Origin: a virus
Reading direction: 5' to 3' (one strand)
Virus record (IMG/VR): IMGVR_UViG_3300021478_000051
Coordinates: 1-45,068 of that record
Length of the DNA stretch: 45,068 bases
This document shows, piece by piece, positions 8,156 to 38,613 of this stretch. Below the pieces are notes generated by a model that was not told the origin of the DNA, ran no database searches, and saw only the letters and a list, made by a program, of their open reading frames with translations. A program made the translations under genes and the position numbers. Numbering within the stretch: the first letter of the stretch is position 1; each line of letters opens with the position of its first letter.

Positions 8156-8672
8156 ACCCAAACTCGACATAGACTCTCTTGTTACTGGCGTCATGAAGGG
8201 CCTTGTGGAGGAATACCAGGCTGACACGAAGACGGCCGAAGCGCTGGTAAAAAAGTGGACGCTAGAGGCTGACGCCAACCGCCAGGGGGCAGTTGCCATC
8301 GCCCTTATCGGTATGAACGCCTGTTATCTCAAGAAGGCGTTTGTCTCATTGGGCCGGGCCGATAACGAGCCGGTACAGAACAGAATGATGGCTGAATTCT
8401 TCAAGGCGATCGCTGTCGAAGTCCACCCGGTACCAGACCAAGGCAACGACTTTGTAGTTACATCGATGTTGGTGAACATCGCGCTTGGAGACAGCAAGCC
8501 GGCAGAGAAGATCACTGTTCTGATGGCCGTTCTAGCTGCGGTCATGGTGGCATTCGTCGAGAGCCCAGATAAACTCCAGGCGCTGGTTGATGCCACCGTA
8601 GAAGGGCTGAAACAATTGGTTGCCGGGATGGAGAAGGAAAAAGCCGATTATGTCGCCGCTAAAACGGTGTGA
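8145..8672 (+). CDS. Early protein of unknown function
   Basis: This gene encodes 175 aa. ATG 8145 was chosen because AGGAG lies 8 bp upstream; an earlier in-frame ATG (8100) lies inside the HTH gene with no SD. Mostly helical, with a hydrophobic middle segment (ITVLMAVLAAVMVAFV, about residues 125-140) that may be a buried or membrane helix. It overlaps both neighbours by 11 and 23 bp. No family recognised. Confidence 0.55.
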   Translation: MTDKPKLDIDSLVTGVMKGLVEEYQADTKTAEALVKKWTLEADANRQGAVAIALIGMNACYLKKAFVSLGRADNEPVQNRMMAEFFKAIAVEVHPVPDQGNDFVVTSMLVNIALGDSKPAEKITVLMAVLAAVMVAFVESPDKLQALVDATVEGLKQLVAGMEKEKADYVAAKTV

Positions 8673-18085: not shown

Positions 18086-18361
18086 ATGACCCGGAGAGGA
18101 CATAAACGTAACCCAGATGGCGTCGGTGGGCGTCTTGATTGTAGCCAGGTCAGGTTTGAAGGTTCTGGTGGCGGTAACTTTGGAGAGAAGCTTGCCGATC
18201 GCGTGCCGGAAGTCCGTAAGCTATTGCGCGCCGACATGACCCTCGTCCAGATCGCCGCCGCTCTGGAGGTGAGGGAGACTACCCTGCGCAAATTCATCAA
18301 GCGGCGCAACCTCTGCGATCTCAAGCAGCGCAACTTCATACGGACTCACGGCGTGAGATGA
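18086..18361 (+). CDS. HTH DNA-binding protein
   Basis: This gene encodes 91 aa from ATG 18086. Residues about 47-80 form a resolvase/GcrA-type HTH (VRKLLRADMTLVQIAAALEVRETTLRKFIKRRNL). The N-terminus is Gly and Arg-rich. It overlaps the oxygenase gene by 4 bp, so it is co-expressed and might regulate this late operon. Confidence 0.6.
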   Translation: MTRRGHKRNPDGVGGRLDCSQVRFEGSGGGNFGEKLADRVPEVRKLLRADMTLVQIAAALEVRETTLRKFIKRRNLCDLKQRNFIRTHGVR

Positions 18362-19380
18362 AGCCAACCGTCATTGATGATTTTCTGCCGGCGGGGGACT
18401 ATGCCAGGCTGCGCGACTACGTGCTGTCGCAGCCGATGGCTTATGGTTCAAAGTCGAACAACCAGACCGACCCGCACGGTCACTGGAGCTGGAAGCCGGT
18501 GCATGACCAGCGGCAGAACCTGGCTGACCTTACCGCAACTCTGCCGCCGTTGCCGCGCGAGATGTGGCACAAAGTGAATCAGAAAATCTGGGAGCTGAAC
18601 AGCGCGGCCATCGTCCGTTGCTATGCCAACGGCTACACCTACGGTACCGATGGCTATTTCCACACCGACAGCCAGCGCGCCGACGAGCACACCATCATCA
18701 TCTACATCTGCAAAGATTGGCTCGGTGATTGGGCCGGCGAAACGGTTTTCTGGGACGGCCATGACGAATACACGTCGGTCTTGCCGCGCGCCAACCGGGC
18801 CGTCATCGCGCCCTCAAATATGTCGCATTGCGCTCGCGCCGTTTCCCGCAAGTGCAACGTGCTGCGCACCACCTTCATGTACAAAACTCGGCCTAAGCGC
18901 AGCGCCGATTTTGAGCGACTGAGTGCTTTCCTTGTGGAACACGGCGGCCTCAAACAAGAACATACCGCAGGTACGCTACACGACCACCTGGTCCGCGTGT
19001 TCCAGCTATTGGAAGATAAATTTAAGGACATGAAGGCAAAGGAATTGTGCTTTGCCGGCGGCCTGCACTCGATCTACGGCACCAATGTATACCAGCGCCA
19101 ACTGTTGAAGCCGGACGCTATTGGCCGAAGCGTTGTCTCAAGCTACTTCGGGCAATCGGCAGAGGCGCTGGCTTTTATGTTCTCGTTGCTCGATCGGCCG
19201 GCGACCTTGGAGAAACCCGATCTGCATGACAGCCGGCTCAAGCTGCGTTACGATCATATGGTCGAAGTCAGCCCGCAGATGCTGCGCCAGCTGCAATTGA
19301 TCGAATGCGCTAATCTGGCCGATCAAAACTCCCTGGCCAAGTGGCCCAACCTCGCAAAGATATGGAGCGAAGCAAAATGA
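18358..19380 (+). CDS. 2OG-Fe(II) oxygenase fused to a DUF6817 (HD-like) domain
   Basis: This gene encodes 340 aa. Residues 1-177 form a prolyl-4-hydroxylase-type dioxygenase: YFHTD gives His102 and Asp104, SHCARAV gives His157, and VLRTTFMYK supplies Arg170 for 2-oxoglutarate. Residues 200-325 match DUF6817, an HD-like helical domain (TLHDHLVRVFQLLED with His208/His210, LCFAGGLHSIYGTNVYQ with His237). The oxygenase would hydroxylate a protein or other substrate; the HD-like half could bind a second metal. It is embedded in a lysis and packaging operon with 4-bp overlaps on both sides. Confidence 0.8.
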   Translation: MKPTVIDDFLPAGDYARLRDYVLSQPMAYGSKSNNQTDPHGHWSWKPVHDQRQNLADLTATLPPLPREMWHKVNQKIWELNSAAIVRCYANGYTYGTDGYFHTDSQRADEHTIIIYICKDWLGDWAGETVFWDGHDEYTSVLPRANRAVIAPSNMSHCARAVSRKCNVLRTTFMYKTRPKRSADFERLSAFLVEHGGLKQEHTAGTLHDHLVRVFQLLEDKFKDMKAKELCFAGGLHSIYGTNVYQRQLLKPDAIGRSVVSSYFGQSAEALAFMFSLLDRPATLEKPDLHDSRLKLRYDHMVEVSPQMLRQLQLIECANLADQNSLAKWPNLAKIWSEAK

Positions 19381-19694
19381 TCGTCCCTACCATTGGCAGA
19401 AAAGTCTGGTTCACCCCAGCCAACACCGATACCGAGATCGCATGGGGCGATAAGAAGCAGAAACTTGATGCCACCATCATCTACGTTTGGAGCGACGTGA
19501 TGGTCAATCTGTTCGTGGTTGATCAAGAAGGCAAGACCTGGCTCAAGTCATCCGTGCCGCTGCTCTCTGGGGACATAAGCCCCAACGCATTCGGCTACTA
19601 TGCCGAATGGATGCCGTACCAGCTCGGTCAGGCCGCCAAGACCGAGGCCGTGCAAGCCGGCGTAGGCCAAGGTGTTACTGGGGCTCCACGATGA
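19377..19694 (+). CDS. Conserved phage protein upstream of the endolysin
   Basis: This gene encodes 105 aa; ATG 19377 overlaps the oxygenase stop (ATGA). IVPTIGRKVWFTPAN at the N-terminus, LDATIIYVWSDVMVNLFVVD in the middle and YYAEWMPYQLGQA at the end match a small protein widespread in proteobacterial phages. It appears to be a beta-barrel-like domain; function not established. Confidence 0.6.
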   Translation: MIVPTIGRKVWFTPANTDTEIAWGDKKQKLDATIIYVWSDVMVNLFVVDQEGKTWLKSSVPLLSGDISPNAFGYYAEWMPYQLGQAAKTEAVQAGVGQGVTGAPR

Positions 19695-20317
19695 CCATCT
19701 CGCCCAAGCTGGTCAGCTTCATCGTCGCCCAAGAGGATGGCGATGAAGCCTATTACGACAAGACCGAGGAACATTTCGATTGGCCCGGCGGCGCTTCCGG
19801 CCCCACAGTTGGCGTCGGCTACGATCTCGGCTACTGCACTTCAGCCGAATGCAGGAGCGATTGGGCGGGTATTGTAGATCAACAAATGATTGATGCCATG
19901 GTGGATGGTGTACAGCGCACCGGGGAGATAGCCCACGCCTGGGTGCAAGAACACCGCAGCGAGGTTACCATAACCTGGGCACAGGCTCTCCAGGAGTTCA
20001 CCCTGCGAGAGATTCCAAAGTGGGAGAACCGTGTCAGGTTGGCGTTGCCGAACTATGACGATCTCCCCTCGGACGATTGCCGTGGTGTTCTGGTCTCGCT
20101 GTCCTACAACCGGGGAACGGGAGGTTACAACTCAACGCTGCCGAGATTTACAGAGATGCGGAATATCAGGGTTGCAATGGAGCAGAAGCAGTATAATCTA
20201 ATCCCGGCCCTGATTTCCTCCATGGTGAGGCTGTGGCCCAATGTGTACGATCTTCGGCACCGCCGCATTCTTGAGTCGCGGTTGTTTGCCGAGGGCTTGC
20301 AGGAGGCTACAGCATGA
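19691..20317 (+). CDS. Endolysin (lysozyme-like muramidase)
   Basis: This gene encodes 208 aa; ATG 19691 overlaps the previous stop as ATGA. The N-terminal region resembles lysozyme-like glycoside hydrolases: AQED with a candidate catalytic Glu15 and the SGPTVGVGYDLGY segment (residues 36-48), then LSYNRGTGGYNSTLPRFTEM. It would cleave peptidoglycan glycan strands at lysis. No signal peptide, so release depends on the holin encoded immediately downstream. Confidence 0.75.
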   Translation: MTISPKLVSFIVAQEDGDEAYYDKTEEHFDWPGGASGPTVGVGYDLGYCTSAECRSDWAGIVDQQMIDAMVDGVQRTGEIAHAWVQEHRSEVTITWAQALQEFTLREIPKWENRVRLALPNYDDLPSDDCRGVLVSLSYNRGTGGYNSTLPRFTEMRNIRVAMEQKQYNLIPALISSMVRLWPNVYDLRHRRILESRLFAEGLQEATA

Positions 20318-20670
20318 CCCAGGACCAGTGGCTGATGATGGTGCGAATGCTGCTCCAGATGGGCGGCGTAGTCTTGGTCTCCAAGGGCGTGTTCTCGGAT
20401 GCGGATTGGACCACGCTATCGACCGATTTCCTGACTTGCGCCGGCGCCGGCATGACGCTCTGGAGTGTGGTGTGGTCATTCTGGGTTCGGCGCGCGTCCG
20501 GCCTCAAGGCCACGGTGGCCAACATGCCAAACACGGTGGTGGTGACGACAACGCAGCCGGCCAGCTTGCCGGCCGTTGCCAACATGATAGCCGACATACC
20601 AACTGTAGAGACCGTGAAGGCGCCGGCGGATGTTGTCAAAGCTACACCGTCGCCCAAAGTCGTGCCGTGA
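20314..20670 (+). CDS. Holin-like protein (Pam3 gp28 type)
   Basis: This gene encodes 118 aa with ATGA overlap at its start. Residues 5-55 (VRMLLQMGGVVLVSKGVFSDADW, FLTCAGAGMTLWSVVWSFWV) resemble the Pam3-gp28-type putative holin with two hydrophobic helices. The C-terminus is a Thr, Val, Pro and Ala-rich tail. Directly after the endolysin, as expected of a lysis cassette. Confidence 0.65.
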   Translation: MTQDQWLMMVRMLLQMGGVVLVSKGVFSDADWTTLSTDFLTCAGAGMTLWSVVWSFWVRRASGLKATVANMPNTVVVTTTQPASLPAVANMIADIPTVETVKAPADVVKATPSPKVVP

Positions 20671-36180: not shown

Positions 36181-36641
36181 CGTTCGATATTGAACGGCTC
36201 TCCCGCTACTCGATCCCGCCAGCCCTTTTGGAGGCTCATTACAAAGAGCTAGCACCGCTTCAGCATATCAACAAGCTGAAGCCGGATTGGGAGGCTTATA
36301 GTCACATGCAGCAATTGGGCGATCTGCTGTTCGTGACCGCCCGCATCACCACCAGGCCATGTCACATGGTAGGCTACATGGTGCTGGTGGTGCGACCACA
36401 TTTGCATTACGGCGACGTGCTGGTGGCAATTGATGATATCCACTATTTGGCGCCGGAATATCGGGGTGCCGGCTGGGGCAAGAAGCTGATCGAGTTTGCG
36501 GAGCAAGCCGCCGCCAATATGGGTGCCAAAATCTTCTCGGTGCGCTGCAAAGCCAAGAGCAACCATGGCTATATCTTCGAATCGTTGGGCTATGAGCTGA
36601 CCGATCTCGTCTACATCAAGGATTTGACCAATGTTGGATGA
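36111..36641 (+). CDS. GNAT-family acetyltransferase
   Basis: This gene encodes at most 176 aa. DDIHYLAPEYRGAGWGKKLIEFAEQAAANMGAK contains the acetyl-CoA P-loop motif (R-G-x-G-x-G/K type), and HGYIFESLGYELTDLVYIKD is the GNAT C-terminal strand. Homologues seem to begin with LTFDIERL, so translation may start near 36177 (a CTG overlapping the previous stop) rather than at ATG 36111, which overlaps the neighbour by 70 bp. It is a common but unexplained companion of podoviral tail genes; acceptor unknown. Confidence 0.7.
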   Translation: MVHMDGHPRGRAQPDQGGARDILTFDIERLSRYSIPPALLEAHYKELAPLQHINKLKPDWEAYSHMQQLGDLLFVTARITTRPCHMVGYMVLVVRPHLHYGDVLVAIDDIHYLAPEYRGAGWGKKLIEFAEQAAANMGAKIFSVRCKAKSNHGYIFESLGYELTDLVYIKDLTNVG

Positions 36642-38613
36642 TCTGTTTCGTTTTTGGCAGCCGAGCTGGTTGTTCTGCGCCAGCGACGATGACGACGGAG
36701 GGGATGGGGGTGACGGCGGCGATGGGGGTGACGGCAAGAGTGACGGCGGTGACGGCAAGTCGGACGGTGGTGACGGCAAGGGTGACGGCGGCAAGAGCGA
36801 CGGTGGCGCTGGTGGTGGGGGCACCGGTGACGGTGGCGCAGGCGGCGGTGGCGGTGGCGGCGACGGCACCGGTGGAGGAGGTACTACAGATGGCGGCGAC
36901 GGCACCGGCGCAAATGATCCCACTGGCGGGAACCAAGACCCTGGAGGCGGTGGCGGGGGCGGTAACAAGGATGATGGCACCGGCCCCGGTGACGCCACTG
37001 GCGGGAACCAAGACCCTGGTGGCGGAGCGGGGGGTGGCGCTGACGCAACTGGAGCCGGACCTTCCGATGCGGGTGCCGGCGGGCCAGCATCAGATGCGAC
37101 GGGCGGGACTCAAGACCCGGCCGCCGGTGGTGGAGGTGGCCCAACATCAGAAGCCGGATTGGGAGGCGTATCAGGTGTTTCTGGCGATGCCTCGGCCGCT
37201 CTGAGTTCCGCCTCACCTGCGGCGGCTGCGGAAGCAGCCGGGTTACCAGGCGGCGTTACCAGCGCGTCAGATATTTTGGCCGGTATCAGTTCTCCGGTTT
37301 CGGCCGCGCTTTCTGACGCTAGCCCGCAACAGACAGCCCTCACTGAATCAACGGCACCTGGCGTGTGGTCAGGTTTTGGGATTAACGGAGGCAATATCGG
37401 GCCGCAGCCGGGAGCTGATTTTGGCAACATGGTTGGCAATATGCAAAGCGCGCCACCAAGCTCATTCAATGAGCAACTGGGTCTTTCGCCGGGCATGTTT
37501 GAAGCGCCACCCGGAAATGGTCCGATGGATTTCATGGACCCGGACTTTACGCCGCCAAACCAAATCCCGGACACCTCGCCGCCTCCAGGATTCACTCCAA
37601 CGCCAGCGCCAAATGGTGGGTTTGGTATCGGTTCGTTGCTCGGTATCTCGCCGGCAGCTGCGGCCGATTTACAAGCCGCGCCGGCGCCAGCGGTTGCCAC
37701 TATCGACTCGACCAATCCAAATGTTCCTGAGCTGGCGGGAGGGCTGATGCCCGGAGTTACGCCGGCAGCGGAGGCTGGCTTCACCACCCTGGGAGCGCCT
37801 ATCGCAGGCCCTGACATGGGGCCGACGCCGGGACCGATACCGGCATCTTTTGTTGGTACAGGCGCATTCAACGCTATCGATGCGGCAGCGCCGCCTGCGC
37901 CAATAAATGCCAGCTTCAACCAAGAGGCAGGGCTGCTTCCTGGGCCTTCAACAACACCGGAACGCCAACGCCGGCCAAAATGGACAGCCAGAATCTTTCA
38001 CCCAACGCTACGGTTGCCGCCGGTGCGGCGGCTGGCATGTTCCCAGGCGGCGCGCCGGCTGATCCTAGCGCGCTACAGGTCGCAAGCGGGCCGGCGACGG
38101 CTACCGCCCCCAGCGCAGCGCCGGCCGGACCCGGCAGCGTGGCTAACATTCCCGCAAGCGGCCCGGCGGCCGGGCCGGCGACAACGCCAGACACGACAAG
38201 TCCGATCTCTGGACCGAGTGCGCCCGTCAGCGCGGAAGCTGCGACAGCGCTTGCTAATCCATCTACCAGCCCCACCGGCCTGGGCGGCGGTTCAAGCGCT
38301 GACGCCAACTCGCTGGCGGCATCTATCGTGCAGCCCATACCCGGCTCACCGGGCAGTCCGACCGGGCCGCAGCCACAAGGCCCGTTTGTCCCGCCTCCTT
38401 TCGTGCCTCCACCGACTGCTTCTGATGGCGGCAACTTCAATCCCGAATCAGGGATTTACGGCAATCCTGGCATGCCCGGCGGTCCCGCTTTTTTGGGGAA
38501 TCCGACAGACCCTAATGGAGCTGGCGGTGTGGCCCTGCCGGGCGGCGTCCCCGGGCCGCAACGGGTGTATAACAACCCGCCCCCGGCTGATGGCGCCCCG
38601 GGTGGAAACGTAA
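36631..38613 (+). CDS. Low-complexity Gly/Asp-rich virion-region protein, frame changes near 37950-37980
   Basis: The nominal frame is 660 aa. Residues 1-18 are hydrophobic/aromatic (MLDDLFRFWQPSWLFCAS). A Gly/Asp tandem-repeat region (about 19-90) and three copies of a TGGNQDPGGG-type repeat follow (about 95-175). From about residue 435 this frame becomes Arg-rich and unlike a real protein, while the -1 frame (37980-38660) carries on the Gly, Pro and Ala-rich style. A sequencing indel or -1 frameshift probably joins them into one protein of about 675 aa. Located before the internal virion genes. Confidence 0.55.
   Translation: MLDDLFRFWQPSWLFCASDDDDGGDGGDGGDGGDGKSDGGDGKSDGGDGKGDGGKSDGGAGGGGTGDGGAGGGGGGGDGTGGGGTTDGGDGTGANDPTGGNQDPGGGGGGGNKDDGTGPGDATGGNQDPGGGAGGGADATGAGPSDAGAGGPASDATGGTQDPAAGGGGGPTSEAGLGGVSGVSGDASAALSSASPAAAAEAAGLPGGVTSASDILAGISSPVSAALSDASPQQTALTESTAPGVWSGFGINGGNIGPQPGADFGNMVGNMQSAPPSSFNEQLGLSPGMFEAPPGNGPMDFMDPDFTPPNQIPDTSPPPGFTPTPAPNGGFGIGSLLGISPAAAADLQAAPAPAVATIDSTNPNVPELAGGLMPGVTPAAEAGFTTLGAPIAGPDMGPTPGPIPASFVGTGAFNAIDAAAPPAPINASFNQEAGLLPGPSTTPERQRRPKWTARIFHPTLRLPPVRRLACSQAARRLILARYRSQAGRRRLPPPAQRRPDPAAWLTFPQAARRPGRRQRQTRQVRSLDRVRPSARKLRQRLLIHLPAPPAWAAVQALTPTRWRHLSCSPYPAHRAVRPGRSHKARLSRLLSCLHRLLLMAATSIPNQGFTAILACPAVPLFWGIRQTLMELAVWPCRAASPGRNGCITTRPRLMAPRVET

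Follow-up and report, generated by a model that had tools for sequence, protein, structure and literature searches.

EGLN3-like oxygenases are reported to be widespread in phages (PMC12774648). In cyanophages, clusters that hold a halogenase together with 2OG enzymes have been predicted to make secondary metabolites (PMC7824862), and other 2OG genes have been proposed to act in repair (PMC2984593) or in 2OG handling (PMC3037559). The Pfam family DUF6817 (PF20680) has a blank function entry. In the open literature that we searched no paper mentions the family, and no description was found of a partnership between DUF6817 and 2OG oxygenases or of a descent of DUF6817 from the HD fold; both are additions of the present analysis. 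We have analyzed a gene that encodes the two domains in one chain. It lies in a window of 45,068 nucleotides, the whole stretch of IMG/VR virus record IMGVR_UViG_3300021478_000051.

The fusion gene occupies positions 18358..19380 of the plus strand, as do the neighboring genes and all residues given below, and encodes 340 amino acids plus the stop codon. The 45-kb virus contig holds one copy of the protein. A small gene with a weak HNH-family match lies upstream (18086..18361), and a gene of phrog_2293, a family with no assigned function, follows downstream (19377..19694). Read by eye, both overlap the fusion gene by the four base pairs ATGA (18358-18361 and 19377-19380), and overlaps of the same pattern recur further downstream at 19691-19694 and 20314-20317. 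These delimit a lysozyme-like gene (19691..20317), whose match to the Pesticin family is weak and below the cut-off and whose homologs also lie 3' of the fusion gene in two relatives (L009 and L013), and lead into a holin gene of the Pam3 gp28 type (20314..20670; PF23987, E 1e-12). The gene for the large terminase TerL also lies downstream. An earlier note on this DNA had placed the fusion by 4-bp overlaps in a lysis and packaging operon, and this is a fair name for the setting. Elsewhere the window carries a single tRNA-Val (gac) gene (8463-8551) and an ORF of 660 amino acids (36631-38613) that has an N-terminal low-complexity stretch of the GGD/DGKS type and no PHROG match.

The N-terminal half (residues 1-180, 18358..18897) is a 2OG-Fe(II) oxygenase domain. 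Pfam 2OG-FeII_Oxy_3 (PF13640) matches residues 100-165 with an E-value of 8.2e-6 and 27.1 bits, barely above the cut-off of 27 bits, and the match of this half to phrog_274 has an E-value of 2.5e-22. The HxD...H metal triad and the arginine of the Fe(II)/2OG oxygenase superfamily are present and invariant in 32 aligned relatives. H102-x-D104 (18661..18669) provides the first two Fe(II) ligands, H157 (18826..18828) the third, and R170 (18865..18867) is presumably the 2-oxoglutarate-binding arginine, a role that we assign from knowledge of the superfamily. The fusion is predicted to turn over 2OG. The AlphaFold2 (AF2) model of the fusion has a pLDDT of 91.7 and a pTM of 0.89, and superposing its residues 1-180 on PHD2 and Pseudomonas P4H, the latter also as the EF-Tu complex 4iw3, gives Z-scores of 16-17. 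Among solved structures these are the closest folds, and the predicted half has the double-stranded beta-helix; the model thus supports a PHD-type hydroxylase fold. A search of solved structures by sequence with the full fusion protein gave chance matches only. The PHD2/EGLN group and Pseudomonas P4H share the Fe(II)/2OG ligand set with the phage oxygenase half, but their identity to the phage protein is only 14-18%, and the fusion to DUF6817 is a feature of the phage protein. The reading of the earlier note, a 2OG oxygenase with a complete HxD...H...R set fused to DUF6817, is therefore borne out by the ORF, both Pfam domains and the four invariant residues.

By sequence, the 2OG oxygenases of PHROG 274 from cyanophages belong to the same family (30-39% identity). 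Unlike the window protein, however, the relatives found in cultured phages carry no fused DUF6817. In some cyanophages (S-RIM50, ACG-2014g) a DUF6817 gene immediately follows other 2OG genes. PHROG 274 and RefSeq cyanophage records, for example NC_031906.1, give 2OG oxygenases the name 'DNA endonuclease V'. The PHROG label is the sole link to T4 endonuclease V (DenV), and the Pfam and fold matches returned are 2OG oxygenases; apparently the label is a misannotation that has spread. We also rejected the NCBIfam label FlmC, since the match is far below the cut-off and the papers found use FlmC for other proteins.

The C-terminal half (residues 181-340, 18898..19377) consists of DUF6817 and C-terminal helices. 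Pfam DUF6817 (PF20680) matches residues 192-280 with an E-value of 3.1e-15 and 56.5 bits, well over its cut-off of 25.2 bits. Predicted alone, this half reaches an AF2 pLDDT of 95.4, and the top 22 rows of the structural comparison are all RelA/SpoT proteins, MESH1 or small alarmone hydrolases (Z 7.9-11.8); the Foldseek E-values against alarmone hydrolases are weak, the best being 0.02. Middling Z-scores can be incidental for helical domains and hence sequence evidence for the ancestry was sought. HD_4 (PF13328) is matched by 12 of 31 DUF6817 members, with a best E-value of 4.5e-5. A profile search of the PDB with DUF6817 found Lmo0812, with an E-value of 0.002 over the full sequence and of 0.037 for the best single stretch, and the matched stretch of Lmo0812 bears an HD doublet. 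With hhalign, the E-value against nine RelA/SpoT/SAH domains was 4.4e-6, and it was 1.4e-7 when 144 DUF6817 domains were aligned with the RelA/SpoT/SAH HD domain. All three sequence comparisons concur in placing H210, and H237-S238 at the HD doublet, on HD ligand positions, and in the hhalign comparison with 144 domains N319 falls on the final metal aspartate. From the fold model and the profile comparisons we find that DUF6817 descends from (p)ppGpp hydrolases of the RelA/SpoT/MESH1 type. An ORF of 239 amino acids (L079) in the Acidobacteriota genome G439 matches DUF6817 with an E-value of 1e-9 and HD_4 with one of 4e-5, has HA instead of HD, and may bridge the two families.

DUF6817 has the fold and a detectable homology in common with RelA/SpoT/MESH1 and the small alarmone hydrolases (PF13328, HD_4), but its pocket is different: the HD doublet has become HS, the catalytic ED pair GT and the last metal aspartate asparagine, and a histidine and an arginine are conserved in addition. 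Residue counts were made on 144 distinct DUF6817 domains. H210 (18985..18987), aligned with the first metal histidine of the HD fold, is found in 144 of 144. At the doublet position H237-S238 (19066..19071), the histidine is likewise present in all 144 and the serine in 136. N319 (19312..19314), aligned with the last metal aspartate, is asparagine in 142 and aspartate in the other two. The residues new to DUF6817 are H202 (18961..18963; 143 domains) and R280 (19195..19197; 141 domains), and G241, T242 and A318 are found in 140, 141 and 142 domains. Thus the H...HD...D metal ligand set of PF13328 is absent in DUF6817, which has H210, H237-S238 and N319 instead. The catalytic ED pair after HD, invariant as E62 and D63 in nine reference HD sequences, is absent as well, and YGT stands in its place. 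The second domain is therefore HD-like, as the earlier note had it, by fold and by profile match, but a canonical HD metal site it does not have. Since H202, H210, H237, S238, R280 and A318-N319 are each retained in 136-144 of the 144 domains, the pocket is remodeled and not decayed. The HS, GT and Asn replacements make phosphohydrolase chemistry by the known HD mechanism unlikely, while the conserved histidines still argue for a genuine site of binding or catalysis. In the 14 pairs listed, dN/dS was 0.06-0.34 for the 2OG domain and 0.19-0.52 for DUF6817, values that indicate purifying selection on both domains.

Two IMG/VR scans and one GTDB scan with the full protein identified about 32 full-length fusions, with 29-60% identity (mostly 42-60%), as well as 2OG-only cousins. 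The domain-architecture search that the earlier note had proposed thus finds the fusion conserved at some 30 other loci, and the 2OG metal ligands are retained in the alignment of the homologs. This number of loci, together with the purifying selection on both domains, argues that the fusion is more than a chance event. A near group has TerL in common (64-75% identical), with the fusion gene a short distance upstream of it. In a distant group on larger T4-like contigs the gene is flanked by those for the clamp-loader small subunit and for RegA, and in two of these contigs (L024 and L028) there is a 4-bp overlap. Fusions were also found in bacteria-binned contigs, including an Acidobacteria and a Blastocatellia contig in which the displayed neighbors look chromosomal. 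Across phages the neighbors of the module include DnaB, TerL, clamp loader and RegA, thymidylate synthase, ribonucleotide reductase (RNR) and a halogenase, and so widely varied a context does not name the substrate. In several phage loci (L193, L195, L196, L204 and L217, also L192 and L194) one or two tryptophan-halogenase-like genes flank several 2OG genes, and such islands include the 2OG-DUF6817 fusion.

The linkage between the two domains is not limited to fusions. A scan with DUF6817 alone returned 254 viral stretches. Among the best 80 of these, 71 had a fused 2OG domain, 8 an overlapping or adjacent 2OG gene, and 1 began at a contig end. A scan of IMG/VR seeded with the DUF6817 of cyanophage S-RIM50 returned at least 497 viral stretches. 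In the best 80 of these, 18 were fused by HMM (three of them, L192, L194 and L246, in reversed domain order), 52 had a 2OG gene as the immediate upstream neighbor and 4 as the immediate downstream neighbor. For the remaining 6 no 2OG partner was detected by HMM; in one of these (L209) the C-terminal half looks 2OG-like by eye, and two (L216 and L221) begin at contig ends. Pooling the two best-80 samples, which are the best-scoring loci of each scan and not random draws, about 154 of 160 DUF6817 loci have 2OG fused in either order or next door, while other genes of the same loci adjoin a 2OG gene in 20 of 958 cases (2%). The partners were detected with our own profiles; in an independent Pfam scan of 42 adjacent partners, 36 matched 2OG-FeII_Oxy_3 and a few matched sister families. 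On the DUF6817 tree the fusion state switches about 13 times, whereas shuffles average 58 architecture changes, and the pairing with 2OG persists. In cultured cyanophages, too, 2OG and DUF6817 form an overlapping gene pair; a cyanophage 'RNA-binding protein' beside a 2OG gene was considered as a further case and, by eye, is not DUF6817. One viral DUF6817 gene for which no 2OG partner was detected (L226, 692-1177) lies directly 3' of an ORF that by eye looks like a clamp loader. From these counts, DUF6817 is a dedicated partner of PHD/P4H-like 2OG oxygenases, and its near-constant 2OG company in phages means that both domains very probably act in one joint job.

Outside viruses few genomes carry DUF6817: 7 of 398 in Pseudomonadota and 4 of 297 in Acidobacteriota. 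On Paraburkholderia and Caballeronia plasmids, in a Stenotrophomonas genome and in another proteobacterium, 2OG is followed by DUF6817 as a separate, overlapping gene; the overlapping pair is thus also found on Burkholderiales plasmids. In some bacteria DUF6817 has no 2OG gene nearby (L063, L064, L066, L067, L074 and L075). Such examples include Leptospira and a group in which, by eye, DUF6817 is followed by TPR-like repeats. A stand-alone DUF6817 on a Janthinobacterium (J. lividum) plasmid (L074, 9097-9693) adjoins genes for a cyclic-peptide export ABC transporter and for 2,3-diaminopropionate.

What could the joint job be? The explanation that we favor, with a probability of about one half, is a two-part enzyme in which a PHD/P4H-like hydroxylase and a DUF6817 partner with a remodeled HD pocket serve the same substrate or reaction. 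Its observed basis is the domains, the folds, the ligand conservation and the near-obligate linkage. The N-terminal half would be an Fe(II)/2OG oxygenase. It would most likely add a hydroxyl group to a side chain in a protein or peptide, a substrate suggested by the PHD/P4H fold; protein hydroxylation is the likeliest activity of the module. DUF6817, an offshoot of RelA/SpoT/MESH1 with the metal and catalytic acids replaced and a His/Ser/Arg/Asn pocket retained, would act on the substrate or reaction of the oxygenase, and its likeliest role would be to keep the substrate, or a small ligand, next to the oxygenase site. Of the two substrates offered by the earlier note, hydroxylation of a protein is possible and fits the prolyl-hydroxylase fold, while nothing found here favors a modified base in DNA. 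Some loci hint at a tail-fiber or adhesin substrate (tail-fiber neighbors in cyanophages, type I exporters in L049 and L052, a neighboring ORF of 2995 amino acids in L111, pilus genes on plasmids), but as a main claim this was rejected because most phage neighbors are replication or packaging genes. A Gly-X-Y collagen-like substrate was looked for in two translated virion proteins of the window and none was seen.

The near-obligate pairing in both domain orders and the invariant three-His/Asn/Arg pocket could also be expected of a two-step enzyme, in which the oxygenase product, a residue or a small molecule, is converted by a new histidine-based site of DUF6817 (H202/H210/H237). Other HD-fold proteins are indeed oxygenases, and two of them, PhnZ and TmpB, come further down the structural list (Z about 7). 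However, this similarity is well below that to the alarmone hydrolases, and with the acidic HD ligands lost no known HD chemistry fits, so that we regard a two-step enzyme as rather unlikely. The bolder proposal that DUF6817 is a new catalytic domain, derived from the alarmone-hydrolase HD fold, in which a His-rich site has replaced the acidic metal site and further converts what a phage protein hydroxylase has produced, seems unlikely; if true, it would amount to protein modification in two steps of a kind so far undescribed. The missing ED pair could instead mean that DUF6817 binds a nucleotide such as (p)ppGpp, NADPH or PAPS uncut and switches the oxygenase as a regulatory sensor, and the closest folds do include complexes with ppGpp, NADPH and PAPS. 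Yet one position in the region of the nucleotide pocket is now H202, and a sensor would not require such tight pairing with one enzyme class; we consider this role improbable.

Two further proposals draw on gene context and names. Tailoring of either a small molecule or a surface sugar, the role predicted for the halogenase clusters of jumbo cyanophages (PMC7824862), would fit the phage loci in which the fusion sits among several 2OG and one or two tryptophan-halogenase-like genes, and also the J. lividum DUF6817 beside its cyclic-peptide exporter and diaminopropionate genes. It is distinctly improbable, since such a cluster is lacking in the window phage and in most relatives, where replication, packaging or lysis genes flank the fusion. 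Very improbable indeed is an enzyme of nucleic acids that oxidizes DNA or RNA bases or repairs DNA. The 'DNA endonuclease V' name of phrog_274, the place of the gene beside a clamp loader or DnaB in some phages and a published proposal of AlkB-like repair by other 2OG genes of cyanophages (PMC2984593) speak for it. Against this, the fold neighbors are PHD2 and P4H, and the endonuclease name, given to a family of 2OG oxygenases, is apparently wrong. The cyanophage genomes examined in the same study (PMC2984593) are reported to lack denV.

The 2OG-DUF6817 protein is a real, conserved and underappreciated two-domain module. With it, a Pfam family with no listed function, present in at least 497 viral stretches of IMG/VR, gains a fold, an ancestry and a partner. 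Phages carry very many PHD-like 2OG oxygenases of unexplained purpose, and a dedicated partner domain offers a handle on their role.
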